A stretch of 64,000 bases of DNA from Deltaproteobacteria bacterium (GTDB taxonomy: Bacteria; JAGRBM01; JAHCIT01). The stretch's first letter is position 1. Every line of letters starts with the position of its first letter. Position numbers and translations under genes: made by a program. Shown here piece after piece: positions 3,701 through 12,712 of this stretch. The stretch spans positions 62,001 to 126,000 of the forward strand of contig JAHCIT010000005.1 of assembly GCA_026129095.1 (NCBI GenBank), in the 5' to 3' direction. Below the pieces are notes generated by a model, which was given only the letters and a program-made list of their open reading frames with translations, did no database searches and had not been told where the DNA came from.

Positions 3701-4167
3701 TTGTTCGCTTCGGTGAGTTCGGGAAATCCGTCATCTGCCCATTCTTTCCAACCTTTCCGGATGATGGGGTGTTTCAGGCGGTACGGACCGTATACCCGGC
3801 GCTGGAACGTAAACCCGTTCGAGCAGCCGCGCGGATTCCATGCGTGGGACGCCTGGTTTCCGTACAGATCGGTGATGCGGTGACTGTCGTAGTTCTGCTC
3901 CGCCCGGATAAATACGCCGTTCCGGACAAACGCCCGCATCCGGCACTCGTGCGTGCAGTTTGGCGAGCATACCCATGAAAAATGGGAATCGTACCGGTAC
4001 TGGTCCAGGTAGACCTTTTCCCATCCCCGTGACGGATAGTGCCTGAGCGGATTGGCAATGTCCGTGGGCTGGAGAAATCCAAAAGAGAACCGTGGTGAGG
4101 CGAGCGCCGCAGCCGTACCGGCGGCAGCACCTTTAAGAAATTTGCGGCGGAAAATATCAGTTCCCAA
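724..4167 (-). CDS. nxrA: Nitrite oxidoreductase/nitrate reductase catalytic (molybdopterin) subunit, NxrA-type
   Basis: Mo-bis-MGD enzyme of the type II DMSO reductase family, interconverting nitrite and nitrate in the periplasm. I chose the TTG at 4167 (1147 residues, near the usual NxrA length): AAGAGGAG lies 7 bases upstream and the start overlaps the previous stop by 11 bases. An ATG at 4209 would add 14 residues. The N-terminus carries a Tat motif, RRKFLKG, followed by an alanine-rich core. FS0 cluster ligands appear as Cys67-x3-Cys71-x3-Cys75 and Cys115, with Cys where NarG has His. The probable Mo ligand is Asp275 in WHGDQAPGHPF. Blocks such as KNLVENKRADNHF, EYSPPATKSDYW and GENFIVHREGPEATPYLP match, from memory, NxrA of Nitrospira and anammox bacteria. 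Direction of the reaction cannot be told from sequence. Confidence 0.9.
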   Translation of the reverse strand: MGTDIFRRKFLKGAAAGTAAALASPRFSFGFLQPTDIANPLRHYPSRGWEKVYLDQYRYDSHFSWVCSPNCTHECRMRAFVRNGVFIRAEQNYDSHRITDLYGNQASHAWNPRGCSNGFTFQRRVYGPYRLKHPIIRKGWKEWADDGFPELTEANKTKYKFNARGQDQFIRASWDEAYTYAAKGMIHIAGKYSGEEGKKRLLDQGYQPEMLEHWEGAGTRLFKCRGGMGLLGVIGKYGMYRFCNSLALLDAKVRKVGPEKAKGGRVWSNYTWHGDQAPGHPFVHGLQAADCDMNDMRVTKLHIQIGKNLVENKRADNHFFIECMERGAKIVTITPEYSPPATKSDYWIPVRPASDTALLLGITKLLIDEKKYDPAFIKRFSDFPLLVRADTLKRLQPADVIPGYKPKDLSDSPSMKEQGLTREQRETLGDYMVWDMKAGAAVPVSRDDVGTRYDSLGIDAALEGKFRIKLLDGKTAEVYPLFELYKLHLKDYDLDSVHEITGAPKELVRRLTNDIATIKPVAIHVGEGLNHWFHATEMNRAVYLPLILTGNIGEPGAGSYTWAGNYKAAIFQGSKWSGPGFKGWIGEDPWELNLDPSADGKSIHAHMYSKDEEPGYWNYGDKALVVDTPKYGRKSFTGHSHMPTPTKVMWFTNVNLINNAKWVYEMVQNVNPNVELIMSTDIELNGTIEYCDIALAANSWVEAQVHEITASCSNPFLQIWKGGLAPVYDTRDDARILAEMSKKIGDLVGESRFADMWKFVLEGSTDAYIQRLLDSSTTTRGYKLADIMSGKYGESGVALLNFRTYPRVAFYEQIHDPQPFYTPTGRLQAYNDEPEVIEYGENFIVHREGPEATPYLPNVIVSSNPFIRPEDYGIPPGHMGADERQIRNIRLPWKEVKKTKNPLWEKGYKFICLTPKSRHSTHSSWFTTDWHFIWNNDFGDPYRLDKRAAGVGEHQVHINPQAAREMGIEDGDYVYVDANPADRPYTGWKPDDPFYRVSRLMLRARYNPAYPYGIVMIKHGAWMATERTVKAAETRPDGRAQSLDTGYQSNYRYGSHQSITRGWLMPMHQLDSLFHKAKVYMSYLFGGEADNHAVNTVPKETLVKVSKAEDGGLGGVGLFAPTRRGMMPGNESGWMQRYLAGELTRKG

Positions 4168-5134
4168 GGGAAGTCTCCTCTTGCCGTGACTCCTGGTGCT
4201 GGCTGGCATGACCAGCTCCCGCAGTTGTGATCATGATTTCAAGCCGTTCCTGGCACTGGCCACAGATGGCGCCGTGAACATCGGGGTAAAATGTCCCGAT
4301 TGCGTCTTTCAGGATGCCCTTGTCCGGGATATCGCCGGTCATGACGAACTCGGCCGCAGGGAAACCGCAGAATCCACACTCACAAATAGCCCCGCTTCGC
4401 AGCCGGCGCCGCTGCTGCTGGAGTCCTCTTGCAGCCTCGGCAAGATGCTCATGTGTGATCGTCCGGTGTGCGTCCAGCCACGGCTGGAATTCGGCCGCCT
4501 GCCCCCCTGACAACTGGTCCAACACGGAAAGACGCTCGGCATATTTATCTGTGGCTGCCCAGCCCGCCTTCCGCATGCGGTAATCTGCGTAGAGGGCCCA
4601 CAATAGTGAGTATGCACGGGTGAGCTGCTGGACTTCTGCCGGGTGCCGGCCAGCAAACACCGCATCACCGGTATAGACAAACTCCGGATTTACAAGGTCC
4701 TGGAGCTGAAGCCAGCTGAACTTGAGAAATGAGTCCAGTTTTGCGCCGTCAGTCAGGCTTCCAGCTGTTATGTACAGTGCTGCCTGATTGTTTCCCGCGG
4801 AGGCGTCTTGGTTCCCGGGGAGATCTGCCCCCTCGTCTCCAGACTGGCGTGCCTGGAAAACGACGATTTTCCTGAGCCGCTTCGTGATGAGCGGAAAGTC
4901 CGCCAGGGATTCCTGAAAAACTTCGGGATACCCGAGTTTCTCGAATAATGAGTGGTATACAGTCCTGAATTTCGCTTCACGTACCGCGTCTACCGCCGTT
5001 TCTGCATATATCCTGTCGGCCTGTCGGCGAAAATCGGATTCAAGACGGTGAGCCAGCCGGTCGACAGCAGACCGGATTCGCAATTCGATCGCCGTCTCGA
5101 TCAGGAGAGGATCGAATTCGAAGTCTGTGCCCAT
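4157..5134 (-). CDS. Uncharacterised helical Zn-ribbon protein heading the nxr operon
   Basis: 325 residues from the ATG at 5134, which has a good GGAGAGAGG site 3 bases upstream; a longer form from 5224 is possible but lacks such a site. The first 250 residues look all-helical and soluble, without signal peptide. The C-terminal part has a CECGFC ... CGQC arrangement, spaced about 40 residues, like a zinc ribbon or rubredoxin-type knuckle. The gene ends inside the start of nxrA, so it is translationally coupled to it. All-helical accessory proteins of this size usually serve as TorD/NarJ-like chaperones in such operons. I see no clear TorD signature, so a chaperone role is inferred from position only. 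Confidence 0.75.
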   Translation of the reverse strand: MGTDFEFDPLLIETAIELRIRSAVDRLAHRLESDFRRQADRIYAETAVDAVREAKFRTVYHSLFEKLGYPEVFQESLADFPLITKRLRKIVVFQARQSGDEGADLPGNQDASAGNNQAALYITAGSLTDGAKLDSFLKFSWLQLQDLVNPEFVYTGDAVFAGRHPAEVQQLTRAYSLLWALYADYRMRKAGWAATDKYAERLSVLDQLSGGQAAEFQPWLDAHRTITHEHLAEAARGLQQQRRRLRSGAICECGFCGFPAAEFVMTGDIPDKGILKDAIGTFYPDVHGAICGQCQERLEIMITTAGAGHASQHQESRQEETSLGN

Positions 5135-5449
5135 TCGCCTCTCTCCAAATGCACTCCCGGCAATAACCTCTACAGATGAAATATCCACAGAAAATACCGG
5201 CTTGGACTTCCTAGTTACCGACACCCCCGCGGCTCACGATATGACAGGTATCATCATCAGAATAATGAAGAAGCGCGGTTTCCACGGACGTCGGTACAGA
5301 TTTGGAAAGACAAGAACTCTCCCTATGGATCCCTGACCGGGCTGATCTGAAATTTTTGGTGGAGGATCTCACCTCCGAATACCGGCCACTCGGAGCACAA
5401 GGAAGGTCACTCACCTGCCCCGCCTCATATCAGCCTTATGCCCCCACAG

Positions 5450-5878: not shown

Positions 5879-6136
5879 GTGAAAACCCCGTCTTCAGTCT
5901 TCAATGATCTCTCAAGATGGCTGGAAGCCTGTGGATGCAGTTTCTCCGGAGAAGAAGTTGGCCGTCTTATTGACCAGGCACTCGACCACCACGAATCCCC
6001 GCAGGTTCTGGTCTCGGCAATTCTCGATCGTTGCTCTGCATTCGACGAATACAACGGAGAACTGCTCTTCCAGTCCGTTTTTGCTCTCTGGAACGACAAG
6101 GCCCGGGAATGGAACCGGGCCCGGCGGTTCAACTAG
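5879..6136 (+). CDS. Hypothetical protein, 85 residues
   Basis: GTG start with only a weak AGGCGG site upstream. The product is a soluble, probably helical protein with no motif I recognise; the C-terminus is rich in Trp and Arg (FALWNDKAREWNRARRF). It converges with the sigma-54 activator gene and overlaps its end by 8 bases. Codon use looks coding-like, but there is no further support. It may be a small island gene of unknown role. Confidence 0.45.
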   Translation: MKTPSSVFNDLSRWLEACGCSFSGEEVGRLIDQALDHHESPQVLVSAILDRCSAFDEYNGELLFQSVFALWNDKAREWNRARRFN

Positions 6137-7634
6137 GCTCCTCATCAACCCGGACCCCGGAACGAATCAGCCGGTTGTGAAGCGTGGTCCGGGGGATCCC
6201 CAGCAGCCGTGCGGCCTGGGACAGGTTTCCGCCTGACAGGTCCAGTGCCCTGCGAACGAGAGCCAGTTCGAATTCCGCCAATGTCCGGTCCAGATCGAAC
6301 GATCCCCCGAAGTCAGAATCCTTTACCTCGATAATAACCGTCCTGCTGACGGTTGATGGCCGGGCGGCTTCCGCGTCGATGTGGATCACATCAGGCGGTA
6401 TCCGGCCTGACTGGACCGTAATCATCGCCCGTTCAAGGACGTTTTCCAGTTCCCGGACGTTTCCCGGCCAGCCATATTCGCTCATCCGCCTGATCGCCTC
6501 GCTGTCGATGCCAGTGACCGACGTCCCTAGCCGGTTATTCAGCTTCTCAACAATCGCTCTCGCAAGCATTGGCAGGTCATCAATGCGCTCGCGAAGCGGC
6601 TTGAGTTCAACCGGATAGACGGAGAGACGGTAGTACAGATCCTGCCGGAAGCGGCCAGCTTCAACCTCTGCGAGCAGATTCCGGTGCGTCGCCGCAATGA
6701 TACGGCAGTCGCTCCGTTCGGCCCGTTCGGCTCCGACCGGCAGATATTCACGGTTCTGAATCGCCCTGAGGAGCTTCACCTGGATTTCGAGCGGCGCCTC
6801 GCCGATCTCGTCGAGAAACAGCGTGCCACCGCGTGCGACCGAGAATGCCCCCTTGCGCGACTGGGTGGCGCCGGTAAACGAACCCCGCACATGGCCAAAC
6901 AGTTCGCTCTCCACCAGATCCCTGGGCATGGCGGCAAGATTGATTGAAACAAACGGCCCCTTGGCCTTCTGGCTCAGAACGTGGATTATCCGTGCGGCCA
7001 CTTCCTTTCCCGACCCCGTTTCTCCCTGAAGCAGAACAGTCGTCGGAAACGGTGCCACAGTTTCAATCGCGGCAACCACATTGGGGTCCAGATCTTCTTT
7101 CCGGACAAGAATATCCGCCGCCTGAAGGAGCTCATCGGTCAGGTGGACCTTCACGGGTTCCGGCCGGTGCTTCCAGTTGTGCAATGCATCCAGCCGCCGG
7201 AACAGAACAGACTCGGCCGTTGGGATGCACAGATAGTCCCTGAACCCCACATCAAGAGCCCGCCGGGCCAGTGCCATTTCCTCATGAGACAGGCAGGCGA
7301 GTCCCGGCGAAATTCTCAATGCCTCGACCAGAGAACCGGAAATATCCTGTTCCCGCTCCAGGATGCAGACCCAGATTTCGCCCGGATGGACGGGTAGCGG
7401 ATTCAGCACTTCGCGAAGGGAACGGAAGGGCTCGCCCCGCATTCCGGCCCATCGGTTGGCCGATATTTCAAGTGACCGGCTCTGTCCCACAAACAGCACA
7501 AAGAAATCCTTCGACGAAAAACCGTCAGGCAGGACAACAACATCGCCCAGAAGTGGATATTTTGGATGATCTGGAGAGATATATAAACCCGAAATCTGTA
7601 TTACTTCCAGATAGTTACAAAAAGAGACATTCAC
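6129..7634 (-). CDS. Sigma-54-dependent transcriptional activator (bEBP) with receiver-like N-terminus
   Basis: 501 residues from a GTG start with AAGGA upstream. It would open promoters recognised by sigma-54 RNA polymerase. The central AAA+ domain has Walker A GETGSGKE (204-211), the sigma-54 contact loop as GSFTGA (251-256, Ser for the usual Ala) and Walker B TLFLDE (271-276), followed by YGWPGNVRELENVLERA. A Fis-type helix-turn-helix closes the protein (GGNLSQAARLLGIPRTTLHNRL). The first 155 residues resemble a receiver fold at the end (ARRALDVGFRDYLCIP), but the conserved Lys is replaced and I cannot find the phospho-acceptor Asp. It may therefore be a pseudo-receiver sensing a protein or ligand. 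It is divergent from the hydrolase-ligase gene, its likely target. Confidence 0.92.
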   Translation of the reverse strand: MNVSFCNYLEVIQISGLYISPDHPKYPLLGDVVVLPDGFSSKDFFVLFVGQSRSLEISANRWAGMRGEPFRSLREVLNPLPVHPGEIWVCILEREQDISGSLVEALRISPGLACLSHEEMALARRALDVGFRDYLCIPTAESVLFRRLDALHNWKHRPEPVKVHLTDELLQAADILVRKEDLDPNVVAAIETVAPFPTTVLLQGETGSGKEVAARIIHVLSQKAKGPFVSINLAAMPRDLVESELFGHVRGSFTGATQSRKGAFSVARGGTLFLDEIGEAPLEIQVKLLRAIQNREYLPVGAERAERSDCRIIAATHRNLLAEVEAGRFRQDLYYRLSVYPVELKPLRERIDDLPMLARAIVEKLNNRLGTSVTGIDSEAIRRMSEYGWPGNVRELENVLERAMITVQSGRIPPDVIHIDAEAARPSTVSRTVIIEVKDSDFGGSFDLDRTLAEFELALVRRALDLSGGNLSQAARLLGIPRTTLHNRLIRSGVRVDEEPS

Positions 7635-7648
7635 GGCATCCTTTTTGA
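7634..7648 (+). promoter_or_regulatory. Candidate sigma-54 promoter
   Basis: CGGCAT, five bases, then TTGA, against the consensus TGGCAC-N5-TTGC: correct spacing with three deviations. It lies about 40 bases upstream of the hydrolase-ligase start, between that gene and the divergent sigma-54 activator. The match is weak; the context is what makes it worth listing. Confidence 0.35.
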
Positions 7649-7689
7649 GCTTGTCCCCTCAACCGCACTTCCCCGCGATGGAGGGTTCG

Positions 7690-10581
7690 ATGCCTTTCGA
7701 CCAGAGTGTTAACGGACCCTTTCCCGGACTGGCGGCCATACCATTAACGCTGGCCAATCCCGACGGAAATCCGGCTACCGCACTGCTGGATATACCGGAA
7801 ATGGCGGACGGGCCCTTGATTCCGGTTCTCGTGCCGCCAGTATTCGGACGTCCGAAAGAGGAACTTGGGCCCGTATCAGAGGCTCTCACGGCCCAAAACC
7901 GATTTATCGTGTTCCGGCCTGCATTCCGGTCCACAGGTGACGAAGCTCCCGGCAATCTCGATGACATGTATCTGTCGGGAGAGGAATGCACCTACTGGGG
8001 CCGGTATCTCAGGTCAGAACAGTTCCATACGCTCTGCCGGAACAGGCAGCCAGACATCCAGATCGATACCCGTGTTGCCTGTGTGGCCATGTCCATCGGG
8101 GCCACACAGGCATTTCTGTCCCAGGCCGAACACCAAACTTTCGATGCGCTTGCCCTTCTGTCCTTCGTTCCCCACTACCCGACATTCGTCCGGAACAAGG
8201 TCAAACGCGACTACTACGACCTCGTATCGATCGCCTGGGCACTTCGGATGAAGTCACGGCCCGGCTGGGCCGCCTGTTGCGGGGCAATTGCCGCCCGCAA
8301 AGCCGAAGAAGGCGAAGACCGAGAGACGGCCCGGCGGTATCAGCTGCTGGCAGACCGACTCTCCAACACCTCCAGAATCGACCGGAGCCAGATGGCCTCG
8401 ATGCTCGAAGGAGTGCCGGTCAACGCCTTCTCCGGCATCTGGAATGCCATTCGTGGCACTTTTGATTGCCGCTATGATCTTGAGGCGAATCTGCAGTCGA
8501 ACGCCAAAGTCGGGATTCCGCTTACCTTCATATCCGGCGGCAAGGATGACTACTTCCTGCAGGAAGAGATGGACGAATTCATTGCCCTGGCACGCCGTGA
8601 AGGCCGCGTCCGGCGGCTGCTCCGCCTTGAGAATGCCTGTCACCAGCTCCGTCCGTATCCCTGTTTCGAAAAAGCCATGGAGTTTGTCATCCAAGGGCTA
8701 TATAGCGATCTTGGAATTCAGGACGTACCTGTTCCGTTCTCACTAGCAAGAATAGCGGTCCGCCGGTTTTACGAGGTCCGGGGATTCGCCCTGCGCCATT
8801 CCAAAGACCTGGGCGCACCACCGGAGTTGACCCAAAAGGTTCTGCTTTCCAGCGAGGATCTCGCCCGGGTACTCGGGGAACTGTTCAAGCGCCCGGCAGA
8901 AACCGGCGCACTGGTCCGGCTGCTCGCCAGATCAGCGGAACAGATCGGTGGCGAACGGAGCATTCTCGACGAACTGGAACCGGTCCGGATAGGAAAGATC
9001 CTCAACAAATCGCTTTCACCGGAATTGTACCCTTCCATCGCAATAGGACTCTCTGAAGTTCCCGAACTGATCGGCCATCTGTTCCCAGACCATCTGCTTC
9101 AGGCGCTGGATCCGGAACACCTGGATGGATTGCTCCAGGAATTGCTCCGCCACACAGAAGCACTGGAAGCGTTCCTGACCACGGCAAATCCGGAACTGCT
9201 GCTCTCTCTTGGCAGGCGCAAGGCCCTCGCAGCCGCGCAACGTGCGATAAAACTGGTACCGGCTTTTACTGGACACAATCTACCGAAGGATCTCGATCAG
9301 GTTCCGTTCACCAGCAAGGAAGACTATGTCGAGGCGTTCCCGCTCGAAGACAGGTGCATCCACCGGGAACTTCCGCGGGAAGGGCTCATCGATGAATCGA
9401 GCGGTTCCAGCGGAATCCCAACCAACTGGACCCGTTGCCGCGAGGAGGAAGACCGGCTCGCAAACGGTGCCCGGTTCATCTACCGGTTCCTCTTTGGCCG
9501 TCCCGGTGACGACCGCCCGGTAATTCTGCTCAACGGTTTCAGTCAAGGTGCCTGGGCGACGTCAACCAAGCTAACCGTGCTCGCCCGCCATGTGGCACTC
9601 GTCAAGAATATCGGCCCGGAAGAAGAGCGTATTCTGGATTCCCTCGAGTACTTCGGCCGCCGTTACCGTTACATTATCGCCGGGTATCCGCCGTTTCTGA
9701 GGGAACTTGTCCGGGCCGCCACGGAACGGGTGGGGTTTGATTTGAAACCATATACCATCGATATCCTGCATGGCGGCGAAGGCTATACGGCCGGATGGCG
9801 ACGTTATCTTGAAGTGAATCTGGGATCGGGTGCCCGGATCGTGTCTTCATACGGTGCCTCGGATCTTGATCTCGGCGTTGCATACGAAACCACCCTCGCC
9901 CTCGTGGCCAGAAAAATACTGGAGGAAAACCCTGAGTTCCGCCGGGCCCTTCTGGAGACAGAGCGGATTCCGGTGTTTTTCGGCCAATATAATCCGATAG
10001 AGTTCTTTCTGGAAACCCGCCGCCACGACGGAGAATGCAGGACCCTCGTCTGCACCGTGACTAATCTGAAAGCGCACCAGCCCCGCATCCGTTACGATAT
10101 CGGAGACGAAGGGGATATCCTCCCATTTGACCGGATTGTAAACACGGCAAGGGAGTTCGGATTCGACCTGCCAGCATCAGGTTCCCTGAAGTTTCCGTTC
10201 GTCTACATATTCGGCCGTCTCGACGGGACCATCAGCATTGACGGTGCGAATGTTTATCCCGACCAGGTGCACGAGGCGATCCTGACCGATCATCAGCTGG
10301 CTCCCCTGGTCCGCGGCTTCCGTCTACGCCGTTCGGAAAACAGTTCCGGAGAAGTGCGATTCGAAATCGATCTGGAAATGTTCGGGGATGAGACAACGGG
10401 TGGCCCTGATGTCAGCACGGTTGCGGGCAAGCGGATATGCGATTATCTTGCGAAAGTGAACATAGATTTCCGTGAATCGCTGGCTCATAACCCGGCAGCC
10501 ACCAGTCCGGAAGTCAGGGTAGTCCGACCGGGTGAACTGGGAATCGGCACGACCATCAAACGCCGGTATGTGGATCGCTAA
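7690..10581 (+). CDS. LuxD-like alpha/beta hydrolase fused to PaaK/LuxE-like adenylate-forming enzyme
   Basis: 963 residues from the ATG at 7690, which has GGAGG 5 bases upstream. Residues 1-330 form an alpha/beta hydrolase: nucleophile Ser135 in AMSIGA, acid at GGKDD (286-287) and His318 in ENACHQL. The layout resembles LuxD acyl-ACP thioesterases. A helical middle follows (330-550). Residues 550-963 resemble phenylacetate-CoA ligase/acyl-protein synthetase enzymes: DESSGSSGIP near 567 (ATP loop), SSYGASDLD near 718, GRLDGTISIDGANVYPD near 842, and a C-terminal GTTIKRRYVDR that could supply the late catalytic Lys. The plausible chemistry is release of an acyl group and its activation as acyl-AMP or a thioester. 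No LuxC-like reductase is nearby. It is followed closely by the membrane protein gene. Confidence 0.8.
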   Translation: MPFDQSVNGPFPGLAAIPLTLANPDGNPATALLDIPEMADGPLIPVLVPPVFGRPKEELGPVSEALTAQNRFIVFRPAFRSTGDEAPGNLDDMYLSGEECTYWGRYLRSEQFHTLCRNRQPDIQIDTRVACVAMSIGATQAFLSQAEHQTFDALALLSFVPHYPTFVRNKVKRDYYDLVSIAWALRMKSRPGWAACCGAIAARKAEEGEDRETARRYQLLADRLSNTSRIDRSQMASMLEGVPVNAFSGIWNAIRGTFDCRYDLEANLQSNAKVGIPLTFISGGKDDYFLQEEMDEFIALARREGRVRRLLRLENACHQLRPYPCFEKAMEFVIQGLYSDLGIQDVPVPFSLARIAVRRFYEVRGFALRHSKDLGAPPELTQKVLLSSEDLARVLGELFKRPAETGALVRLLARSAEQIGGERSILDELEPVRIGKILNKSLSPELYPSIAIGLSEVPELIGHLFPDHLLQALDPEHLDGLLQELLRHTEALEAFLTTANPELLLSLGRRKALAAAQRAIKLVPAFTGHNLPKDLDQVPFTSKEDYVEAFPLEDRCIHRELPREGLIDESSGSSGIPTNWTRCREEEDRLANGARFIYRFLFGRPGDDRPVILLNGFSQGAWATSTKLTVLARHVALVKNIGPEEERILDSLEYFGRRYRYIIAGYPPFLRELVRAATERVGFDLKPYTIDILHGGEGYTAGWRRYLEVNLGSGARIVSSYGASDLDLGVAYETTLALVARKILEENPEFRRALLETERIPVFFGQYNPIEFFLETRRHDGECRTLVCTVTNLKAHQPRIRYDIGDEGDILPFDRIVNTAREFGFDLPASGSLKFPFVYIFGRLDGTISIDGANVYPDQVHEAILTDHQLAPLVRGFRLRRSENSSGEVRFEIDLEMFGDETTGGPDVSTVAGKRICDYLAKVNIDFRESLAHNPAATSPEVRVVRPGELGIGTTIKRRYVDR

Positions 10582-10613: not shown

Positions 10614-12272
10614 GTGAACCTCCAATCAGCCATCCTGCTACTGCTTGGAATCTCCCTCATTCCGCTGGCGGGCTATGTCTACAGGTTTGCTCACGACCGG
10701 GCCGAGGCACGCTGGTTTGCTCTGGGAGTCGTTGCGGCGTCTACTTATCTCATGGCCATCGCCATGATCGATCTGGCCCCATCTGACCGGGCAGCCCTTT
10801 GGGCCACCCGTTTGGCTTATGCAGGCCCCAGCATCGGCTTCCCCGCGATGATCCTGCTCGTCCGCAGAATCCTTCTGGCTACAGACGCCTCCCGGTCACT
10901 GTCAGCATTGCTGTTTCTGGCCTCCATCGCCGCCCACTCATTCGCCCTGTTTGGCGGCTCGGTGATCTCCGGAATCGACCGGACGACCATGCCCCCATCC
11001 TTTGTCTACGGACCATTCGCAATTGTCCCGCTGTCTTTCGATGCCGGAATACTCCTGTTTCTGGTTGCCGTCGTCATACGTGACTGGCCCAAGGCACCTT
11101 GGAGAGCCCAGAACCGGTTTCTCGTTCTGGTTGTTTCCCTGATCCTCTGGACGTTTTTCACCATCACTTCCAACCTGGTCCTGCCCATTCTCTACGGAGA
11201 TAACCGGTACTATCTGGTTGGCCCTGCCCTGCTTTTGCTTCCCGCCTGCGGCGGCGCCTGGGTCATTGCAGGAGAGCGGCTGCCGGATCTGCTTGCAATG
11301 GCAGGCCGGCTGTTCCCAAACGGGCGTTCCCGGTTGCTTCGGAAACTCGCCGATCTGGAACAGGGCCTGCTTGAGTTGCCAGACATTCATGCTCTCGTTT
11401 CAGAACTGGAGGGAGTGATGGGAGGCCGGCAGTTTGCCTACGCAGGAGCCGGAGACGGACTCAGCTTTACCCCGGGAGCCGTGGATTTTCTATACAAACC
11501 CGGTGACCGGCAGCGTGTCGAGAAACTGGCGAGCCATTACGCCCATTCTCCGGAAACCCTGGATGAAAACCTCCTGCTGACCGGATGGACGGAAGTTATC
11601 GGCTTTGCCGAGCCTGTAGCCTCTCCGTGGCCCGTCTCTTCTGCCCGGGAGATCGAGGTGATAAACAGGATGACCACCTCTCTCGCGGCTGAACCAGTGG
11701 TGATCCTTTCCGCAACAGGATATCTCGATACGATTTCCATCAAGTCCCTTGCCAAACAGGTCCGGCGAAGCCTGGTCTTCACGGCTGAACTGGTCGCAAA
11801 ACTGGATGGCGGCCGCGAGGATGCGGTCCGGTTGCTGAAGGAAGAACGGAACCTCAGGGATGTCATGATTGTCATCCGGCTGGCGGAGCAGGCCCGTGCC
11901 GAACATCTGGAAACCACGGTTTCCGCCTGTGTCTCAGATGGAGCCAAGCTCCTGCTCGTTACTGCTATGGACCGGAACGATCTGATTGGATACGGCCTCT
12001 TCGGCGGTACGGATATCAATCTTCAGGAAGCTCCCCTCTTCGCCTTGGGCAGTCCGCTGCAACGGGCTTCCAACATATCGGTCCATCTGGATCTCATTCT
12101 TTCCCGGCTCGAAGCCAGCTACGGCACCTTCTTCCGCCTGACGCCGGAAGAGAGACACTCGTTCTGCCGCCGGCAGTGGCGGTCAATCCAGGAACTGGAG
12201 TTTGAACTGGAAAAGCATCTGCTGATGTTCCGTTTTTCCCCTTCGGCAAGCCAGAAAGGAATACCCGTATGA
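10614..12272 (+). CDS. Seven-helix membrane protein with degenerate sigma-54 AAA+ domain
   Basis: 552 residues, GTG start with GGAG upstream. Residues 1-225 hold about seven membrane helices resembling the 7TM sensor module of some histidine kinases. There is no HisKA or ATPase domain of that type. Instead the last 200 residues follow the order of a sigma-54 AAA+ domain: VVILSATGYLDT (near 360) where Walker A should be, LLVTAMDRNDLIGYGLF where activators have IIAATHRNLLAEVEAGRF, and RRQWRSIQELEFELEKHL (near 519) where they have YGWPGNVRELENVLERA. Walker A, Walker B and the GAFTGA loop are not recognisable, and no Fis helix-turn-helix is present. A non-catalytic membrane partner of the neighbouring activator is my inference. 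It overlaps the next gene by 4 bases. Confidence 0.72.
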   Translation: MNLQSAILLLLGISLIPLAGYVYRFAHDRAEARWFALGVVAASTYLMAIAMIDLAPSDRAALWATRLAYAGPSIGFPAMILLVRRILLATDASRSLSALLFLASIAAHSFALFGGSVISGIDRTTMPPSFVYGPFAIVPLSFDAGILLFLVAVVIRDWPKAPWRAQNRFLVLVVSLILWTFFTITSNLVLPILYGDNRYYLVGPALLLLPACGGAWVIAGERLPDLLAMAGRLFPNGRSRLLRKLADLEQGLLELPDIHALVSELEGVMGGRQFAYAGAGDGLSFTPGAVDFLYKPGDRQRVEKLASHYAHSPETLDENLLLTGWTEVIGFAEPVASPWPVSSAREIEVINRMTTSLAAEPVVILSATGYLDTISIKSLAKQVRRSLVFTAELVAKLDGGREDAVRLLKEERNLRDVMIVIRLAEQARAEHLETTVSACVSDGAKLLLVTAMDRNDLIGYGLFGGTDINLQEAPLFALGSPLQRASNISVHLDLILSRLEASYGTFFRLTPEERHSFCRRQWRSIQELEFELEKHLLMFRFSPSASQKGIPV

Positions 12273-12712
12273 CCCCAGCGCAAGGCGAAAAGATCTATCA
12301 ACTCCGGACCAAACTCGGACTCACTCCCCAGCAATTTGGACGCATGGCCGGAGTAACGGCGGTGGTTGTTGCCAAATGGGAATCCGGTTTTGCCGAACCC
12401 GGCTGGCTGGCGCTCGGCCGGATAAGACGCGCCTGCGACGTCGACCTCAACTGGCTGCTGGACAGCGGCGATGACCGGCCGGACTATCTCCAAAACGCTG
12501 CCATCTGCGAGGGGAAGCTCGTCGATTCATCACTCCCTAAAATCAGCCGGAATCTCGAGCAAAAACTGATTGGCGACTACCGCAAGCTGAACGAAATCGA
12601 CAGGAGCTTCGTCAGAATGGTTCTGGAAACAGTCGGGAAAACTCCAGAAGTACCTGTGGCCAGGAGGTCGTCTCCCAAATTGCGCCCAAATCCATCAGAC
12701 AAGTTTGTCTAA
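12269..12712 (+). CDS. XRE-family helix-turn-helix protein
   Basis: 147 residues, overlapping the membrane-protein gene by ATGA and so translationally coupled. Residues 5-65 are a Cro/CI-type helix-turn-helix (KIYQLRTKLGLTPQQFGRMAGV, then KWESGFAEP). The rest is a helical tail with a positively charged end (ARRSSPKLRP) and no known sensor domain. It is last in the three-gene set and probably acts as an extra regulator of the island genes. No binding site can be assigned from the sequence. Confidence 0.85.
   Translation: MTPAQGEKIYQLRTKLGLTPQQFGRMAGVTAVVVAKWESGFAEPGWLALGRIRRACDVDLNWLLDSGDDRPDYLQNAAICEGKLVDSSLPKISRNLEQKLIGDYRKLNEIDRSFVRMVLETVGKTPEVPVARRSSPKLRPNPSDKFV

Follow-up and report, generated by a model that had tools for sequence, protein, structure and literature searches.

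A seven-helix membrane protein joined to a degenerate AAA+ domain of the sigma-54 activator type

The window, a stretch of 64,000 nucleotides, is part of contig C5 of a 3.67-Mb genome (G000) that contains 18 strong Sigma54_activat matches. The gene of interest (P0001) is a complete open frame on the forward strand that runs from a GTG start codon at position 10614 to a stop codon at position 12272 and encodes 552 amino acids (table 1). The original prediction had delimited this frame correctly, and it represents a real gene with a known full-length homologue (P0003) and a codon-position GC that resembles that of the adjoining genes. P0001 belongs to a likely operon whose first gene, located 32 bp upstream, encodes an acyl ligase-like protein, and the gene of an XRE-type regulator overlaps the P0001 stop codon by 4 bp (ATGA). 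A gene for an intact sigma-54 activator (bEBP) runs divergently from the head of this operon. The N-terminal domain of this bEBP had no match among seven bEBP-bearing loci from the genome that carries P0003 (G001), a subset of the bEBPs of that genome. By eye, residues 1-170 of the same protein resemble a degenerate receiver, with no Pfam match in this region, and the N-terminal part of the ligase-like protein resembles an alpha/beta hydrolase, so that the latter could be a hydrolase-ligase fusion.

Table 1. Genes and protein features at the P0001 locus, and the intact membrane activators of the two genomes (positions are those of the window unless a locus is given)
Feature	Position	Strand	Evidence
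Intact bEBP (AAA+, lid, HTH_8) with unclassified N-terminal domain	6129..7634	-	PF00158 E 7e-63, PF25601, PF02954
978-aa protein, C-terminal half PaaK-type acyl-CoA/acyl-protein ligase-like	7645..10581	+	TIGR02155 E 3.8e-6; PDB 2y4o E 1.2e-4
7TM/pseudo-AAA+ protein gene (P0001)	10614..12272	+	Open frame; P0003 homologue (24% identity, BLASTP E 1e-20); codon-position GC
Seven-helix membrane domain, HisKA_7TM-like, residues ~1-220	10614..11273	+	PF16927 E 0.001; identity to L003; hydropathy; AF2 helices
Linker, ~120 aa, no family match	11274..11633	+	LPDL..GR..PN.RSR at start conserved with P0003; no Pfam match
Alpha/beta half of pseudo-AAA+ domain, residues ~344-480	11643..12053	+	Secondary-structure order; Foldseek of P0003 model; no significant sequence profile match
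bEBP-type AAA+ lid, residues 482-538	12057..12227	+	hhalign E 3e-5, 0/300 shuffles; PDB profile matches FleQ/NtrC/FlrA; genome matches
XRE-type helix-turn-helix regulator	12269..12712	+	PF01381 E 6e-8
Intact 7TM-bEBP, 624 aa	L020 694-2568 (G000:C1:183693-185567)	+	HisKA_7TM E 3.6e-8, Sigma54_activat, AAA_lid_14, HTH_8
Intact 7TM-bEBP, 620 aa	L046 884-2746 (G001:C260)	+	HisKA_7TM E 7e-6, Sigma54_activat, AAA_lid_14, HTH_8

P0001 is a seven-helix membrane protein, as had been predicted. Residues 8-185 match the HisKA_7TM family (PF16927) with 19.4 bits, which is below the Pfam cut-off of 28.6 bits, and the seven-helix region is also seen as hydropathy peaks and as helices in an AF2 model. The N-terminal match of P0003 to the same family is weaker (E = 0.052). 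The membrane domain looks homologous to the N-terminal domain of 7TM histidine kinases with HisKA_7TM, and one of these (L003) aligns with P0001 residues 7-233 at 23% identity. L003 itself was rejected as a member of the family since it is an ordinary 7TM histidine kinase that has only the membrane domain in common with P0001. In contrast to these kinases, the output of P0001 is a pseudo-AAA+ domain, and the 7TM domain is the sole Pfam match of the protein, with no kinase domain. The linker has no Pfam match; the motif at its start is conserved between P0001 and P0003.

The C-terminal domain of ~210 amino acids displays the layout of an AAA+ protein, an alpha/beta half followed by a helical lid. 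It had been claimed that the last ~200 residues follow the AAA+ core block by block, and at the sequence level this holds for the lid, which contains the predicted counterpart of the WPGNVRELEN motif. A comparison of the two-member family with 27 bEBP AAA+ domains (hhalign) gave a score of 39.4 over 57 columns of the lid (E = 3e-5, probability 73 percent), and none of 300 column-shuffled queries reached this score (best 25.1; reversed query 18.5). P0001 alone beat 1000 out of 1000 composition shuffles and P0003 alone 999 out of 1000, both at the same position of the bEBP profile. When the family profile was compared with PDB sequences, the only matches were chains of FleQ, NtrC, and FlrA, all of them bEBPs, all within the lid and each with an E value near 1. 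Furthermore, three out of four non-self matches in a family search of 386 genomes were lids of intact bEBPs; a match in L026 falls on the strand opposite a bEBP gene and was regarded as accidental. Judged by sequence, the lids of P0001 and P0003 are clearly related to bEBP lids, beyond chance.

The block-by-block claim lacks profile support in the alpha/beta half. Profile comparison of this half with bEBPs stripped of the sigma-54 loop gave no significant match (5 out of 150 shuffles were as good), and the proposed IIAATHRN counterpart fits only by the order and spacing of secondary-structure elements and by the structure prediction for P0003. A MAFFT alignment of P0001 with bEBPs misplaced the alpha/beta half and was left out of the folding. 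The C-terminus of P0003 was folded by AF2 with P0001 as the sole aligned row, hence with no bEBP sequence, which gave a model of moderate quality (pLDDT 65, pTM 0.56) with the order alpha0-beta1-alpha1-beta2-alpha2-beta3-alpha3-beta4-alpha4-beta5-lid helices. The best 50 Foldseek matches of this model in the PDB are all AAA+ proteins (best E = 1e-5, TM-scores 0.34-0.45), with the bEBP-type protein VpsR at rank 10; given the low TM-scores, the arrangement of the two halves relative to each other should not be trusted. The full-length model of P0001 is poor (pLDDT 42) and not usable. The usable model, being that of P0003 and not of P0001 itself, supports a predicted AAA+ fold for the C-terminal domain, with an alpha/beta core and then a helical lid. 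P0001 matches neither PF00158 nor the related sigma-54 interaction-domain family Sigma54_activ_2 (PF14532) at E <= 1 and is therefore more divergent.

The sequences of both P0001 and P0003 show that the Walker A and B motifs and the sigma-54 loop have been lost. The P-loop GxxxxGK (Walker A), the Walker B acidic pair, the GAFTGA motif or insertion that contacts sigma-54, and the arginine context of WPGNVREL are absent from both proteins. Neither of them carries a C-terminal DNA-binding HTH; P0001 ends ~14 residues past the lid and has no HTH match in Pfam. A minority of bEBPs likewise lack the C-terminal HTH. In view of established bEBP biochemistry, it is very unlikely that P0001 or P0003 hydrolyses nucleotides, remodels sigma-54, or binds DNA. 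Because defining features of bEBPs were looked for and are absent, P0001 is placed outside the bEBPs; it is a variant of two known kinds, a bEBP AAA+ domain and a 7TM sensor.

P0003 (533 amino acids) is alignable with P0001 over its full length, and the two host species belong to different families of one order. Both genes are uninterrupted, and since both remain intact at 24% identity in different families we infer selection for a retained pseudo-enzyme instead of a decaying gene. The pseudo-enzyme status that had been proposed for P0001 is well supported by this retention across two families without the catalytic motifs. The genomes searched comprised 386 genomes, the only two covered from the same phylum (G000 and G001) and 384 others. 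Family members were found only in the two own-phylum genomes and in none of the 384 others, of seven genomes of the 16S-nearest phylum, or of 369 of another near phylum; a single match with E = 0.003 was rejected as a 33-amino-acid piece with a stop. No further relatives turned up when genome contigs were scanned with P0001 or with the alignment of the two members. Weak Sigma54 matches elsewhere in the P0001 genome were, where inspected, MoxR-, ComM-, and ClpX-like AAA+ proteins. Overall, it is well supported that P0001 is a membrane sensor-type protein joined to a degenerate bEBP-type AAA+ domain.

As far as the sequences tell, this lineage also has an active version of the 7TM-to-AAA+ architecture. 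One intact 7TM-bEBP is encoded in each genome (L020 and L046), and in these proteins HisKA_7TM and a bEBP AAA+ domain follow each other in the same order as in P0001. These proteins differ from P0001 in their intact Walker A and B, GAFTGA, and HTH_8, in a coiled-coil-like linker between HisKA_7TM and the active AAA+ domain, and in their synteny, a GH5 glycosidase gene following the 7TM-bEBP gene in both genomes. None of the other genomes among the 386 yielded a match to their N-terminal halves. The presence of an active 7TM-AAA+-HTH protein in both genomes makes it a plausible ancestor and partner of the pseudo form, which may derive from this architecture. However, the 7TM domain of P0001 is nearer to that of a histidine kinase, the linkers of the pseudo and active proteins differ, and their 7TM domains show no specific resemblance, making an independent fusion possible.

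The original prediction saw an activator domain turned into a regulatory subunit, and a regulatory role for P0001 is likely. The specific reading proposed here, that P0001 acts as a signal-gated, non-catalytic regulatory partner of an active bEBP by protein contact, is given slightly less than an even chance (about 0.45). The output domain would be a descendant of a sigma-54 activator's AAA+ motor that no longer binds or hydrolyses ATP, contacts sigma-54, or binds DNA. A change in the membrane domain would cause the pseudo-AAA+ domain to associate with an active bEBP, to inhibit it, or to let it go by direct contact, in a mode that may be likened to the partial or co-dependent bEBP subunits of mixed complexes such as FleT (with FleQ) and HrpR/HrpS. 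Mixed bEBP complexes are known for HrpR-HrpS, FleQ-FleT, and the VnfA paralogues (PMC9542535, PMC7277832). Some activators do without a DNA-binding or a signal domain, and FleT of Rhodobacter has neither a signal-recognition nor a DNA-binding domain (PMC3162934). All of these are bEBP-derived AAA+ proteins in mixed complexes, but none is described as membrane-bound in those papers (PMC3162934, PMC9542535, PMC7277832), and P0001 differs from them in being without Walker A, Walker B, and GAFTGA.

Two candidate partners are present in the P0001 genome, the neighboring bEBP (6129-7634) and the 7TM-bEBP at G000:C1, the latter being an equally good candidate. The neighboring bEBP adjoins the P0001 operon, but a bEBP neighborhood is not conserved at P0003, where the locus on an 8.3-kb contig contains no activator gene, and a partnership with this neighbor is not supported by conservation as read from the sequences. 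The 7TM-bEBP occurs together with the pseudo form in both genomes, a sample of two that cannot establish co-occurrence. Only two members of the pseudo-AAA+ family are known.

The absence of an activator gene near P0003 also bears on the possibility that the output of P0001 is unrelated to sigma-54 and that the fold was reused as a docking module, for instance one that controls another product of the operon such as the acyl ligase-like protein or the XRE regulator. The tight packing of this operon, with a short gap upstream and an overlap downstream, agrees with such a use, as does the fact that sigma-54 promoter matches in the window (13) do not exceed the expected number (14.4). The operon partners are, however, likewise not conserved at the P0003 locus, and the lid retains sequence specific to bEBPs, which suggests that it still makes contacts of the bEBP type; a docking module is possible though somewhat unlikely. 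An improbable alternative is that P0001 is an anti-activator or sink that keeps a soluble bEBP bound at the membrane until a signal frees it. PspA holds PspF in a comparable way by means of a different fold. A membrane tether combined with a bEBP-like interface without catalysis would suit this function; the explanation is a special case of the regulatory partner from which it is not separable here. An accidental AAA+ resemblance, the C-terminal domain being some other alpha/beta-plus-helices module (e.g., a receiver-like one), is disfavoured and highly improbable, as the nonsignificant alpha/beta half and the poor model of P0001 itself are set against a lid match with strong nulls, PDB profile matches to bEBPs only, Foldseek matches of the P0003 model to AAA+ proteins only, and a lid placed, as in AAA+ proteins, right after an alpha/beta unit with five strands.

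In the usual account, sigma-54 is activated by soluble proteins whose N-terminal domains are phosphorylated or bind a ligand. A lineage in which active as well as catalytically dead AAA+ domains are fixed to 7TM sensors, here within a little-studied phylum, would mean a direct route from the membrane to sigma-54. It would also be a case in which the motor domain of a bEBP has come to serve regulation only, much as pseudokinases do in kinase pathways. A literature search that covered few subscription journals returned no description of membrane-bound bEBPs or pseudo-AAA+ activators. P0001 as a regulatory partner might, on a still more tentative and rather unlikely extension, represent a new receptor class in which a 7TM protein with a dead bEBP AAA+ domain enters the rings or dimers of active activators, some of them 7TM-anchored themselves, and connects outside signals to sigma-54 transcription without a phosphorelay.

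Two further frames were observed in the P0001 genome. The reverse-strand frame at 4157-5224 of the window encodes 355 amino acids with no family match above the cut-off and has a cysteine-rich C-terminus (CECGFCG...CGQC) that is possibly a zinc-binding site. A 988-amino-acid frame on another contig (L050, G000:C10:105500-110500) combines what by eye are a repeat-rich, TPR-like N-terminus and a GAF-like middle part with an intact sigma-54 AAA+ domain and HTH.
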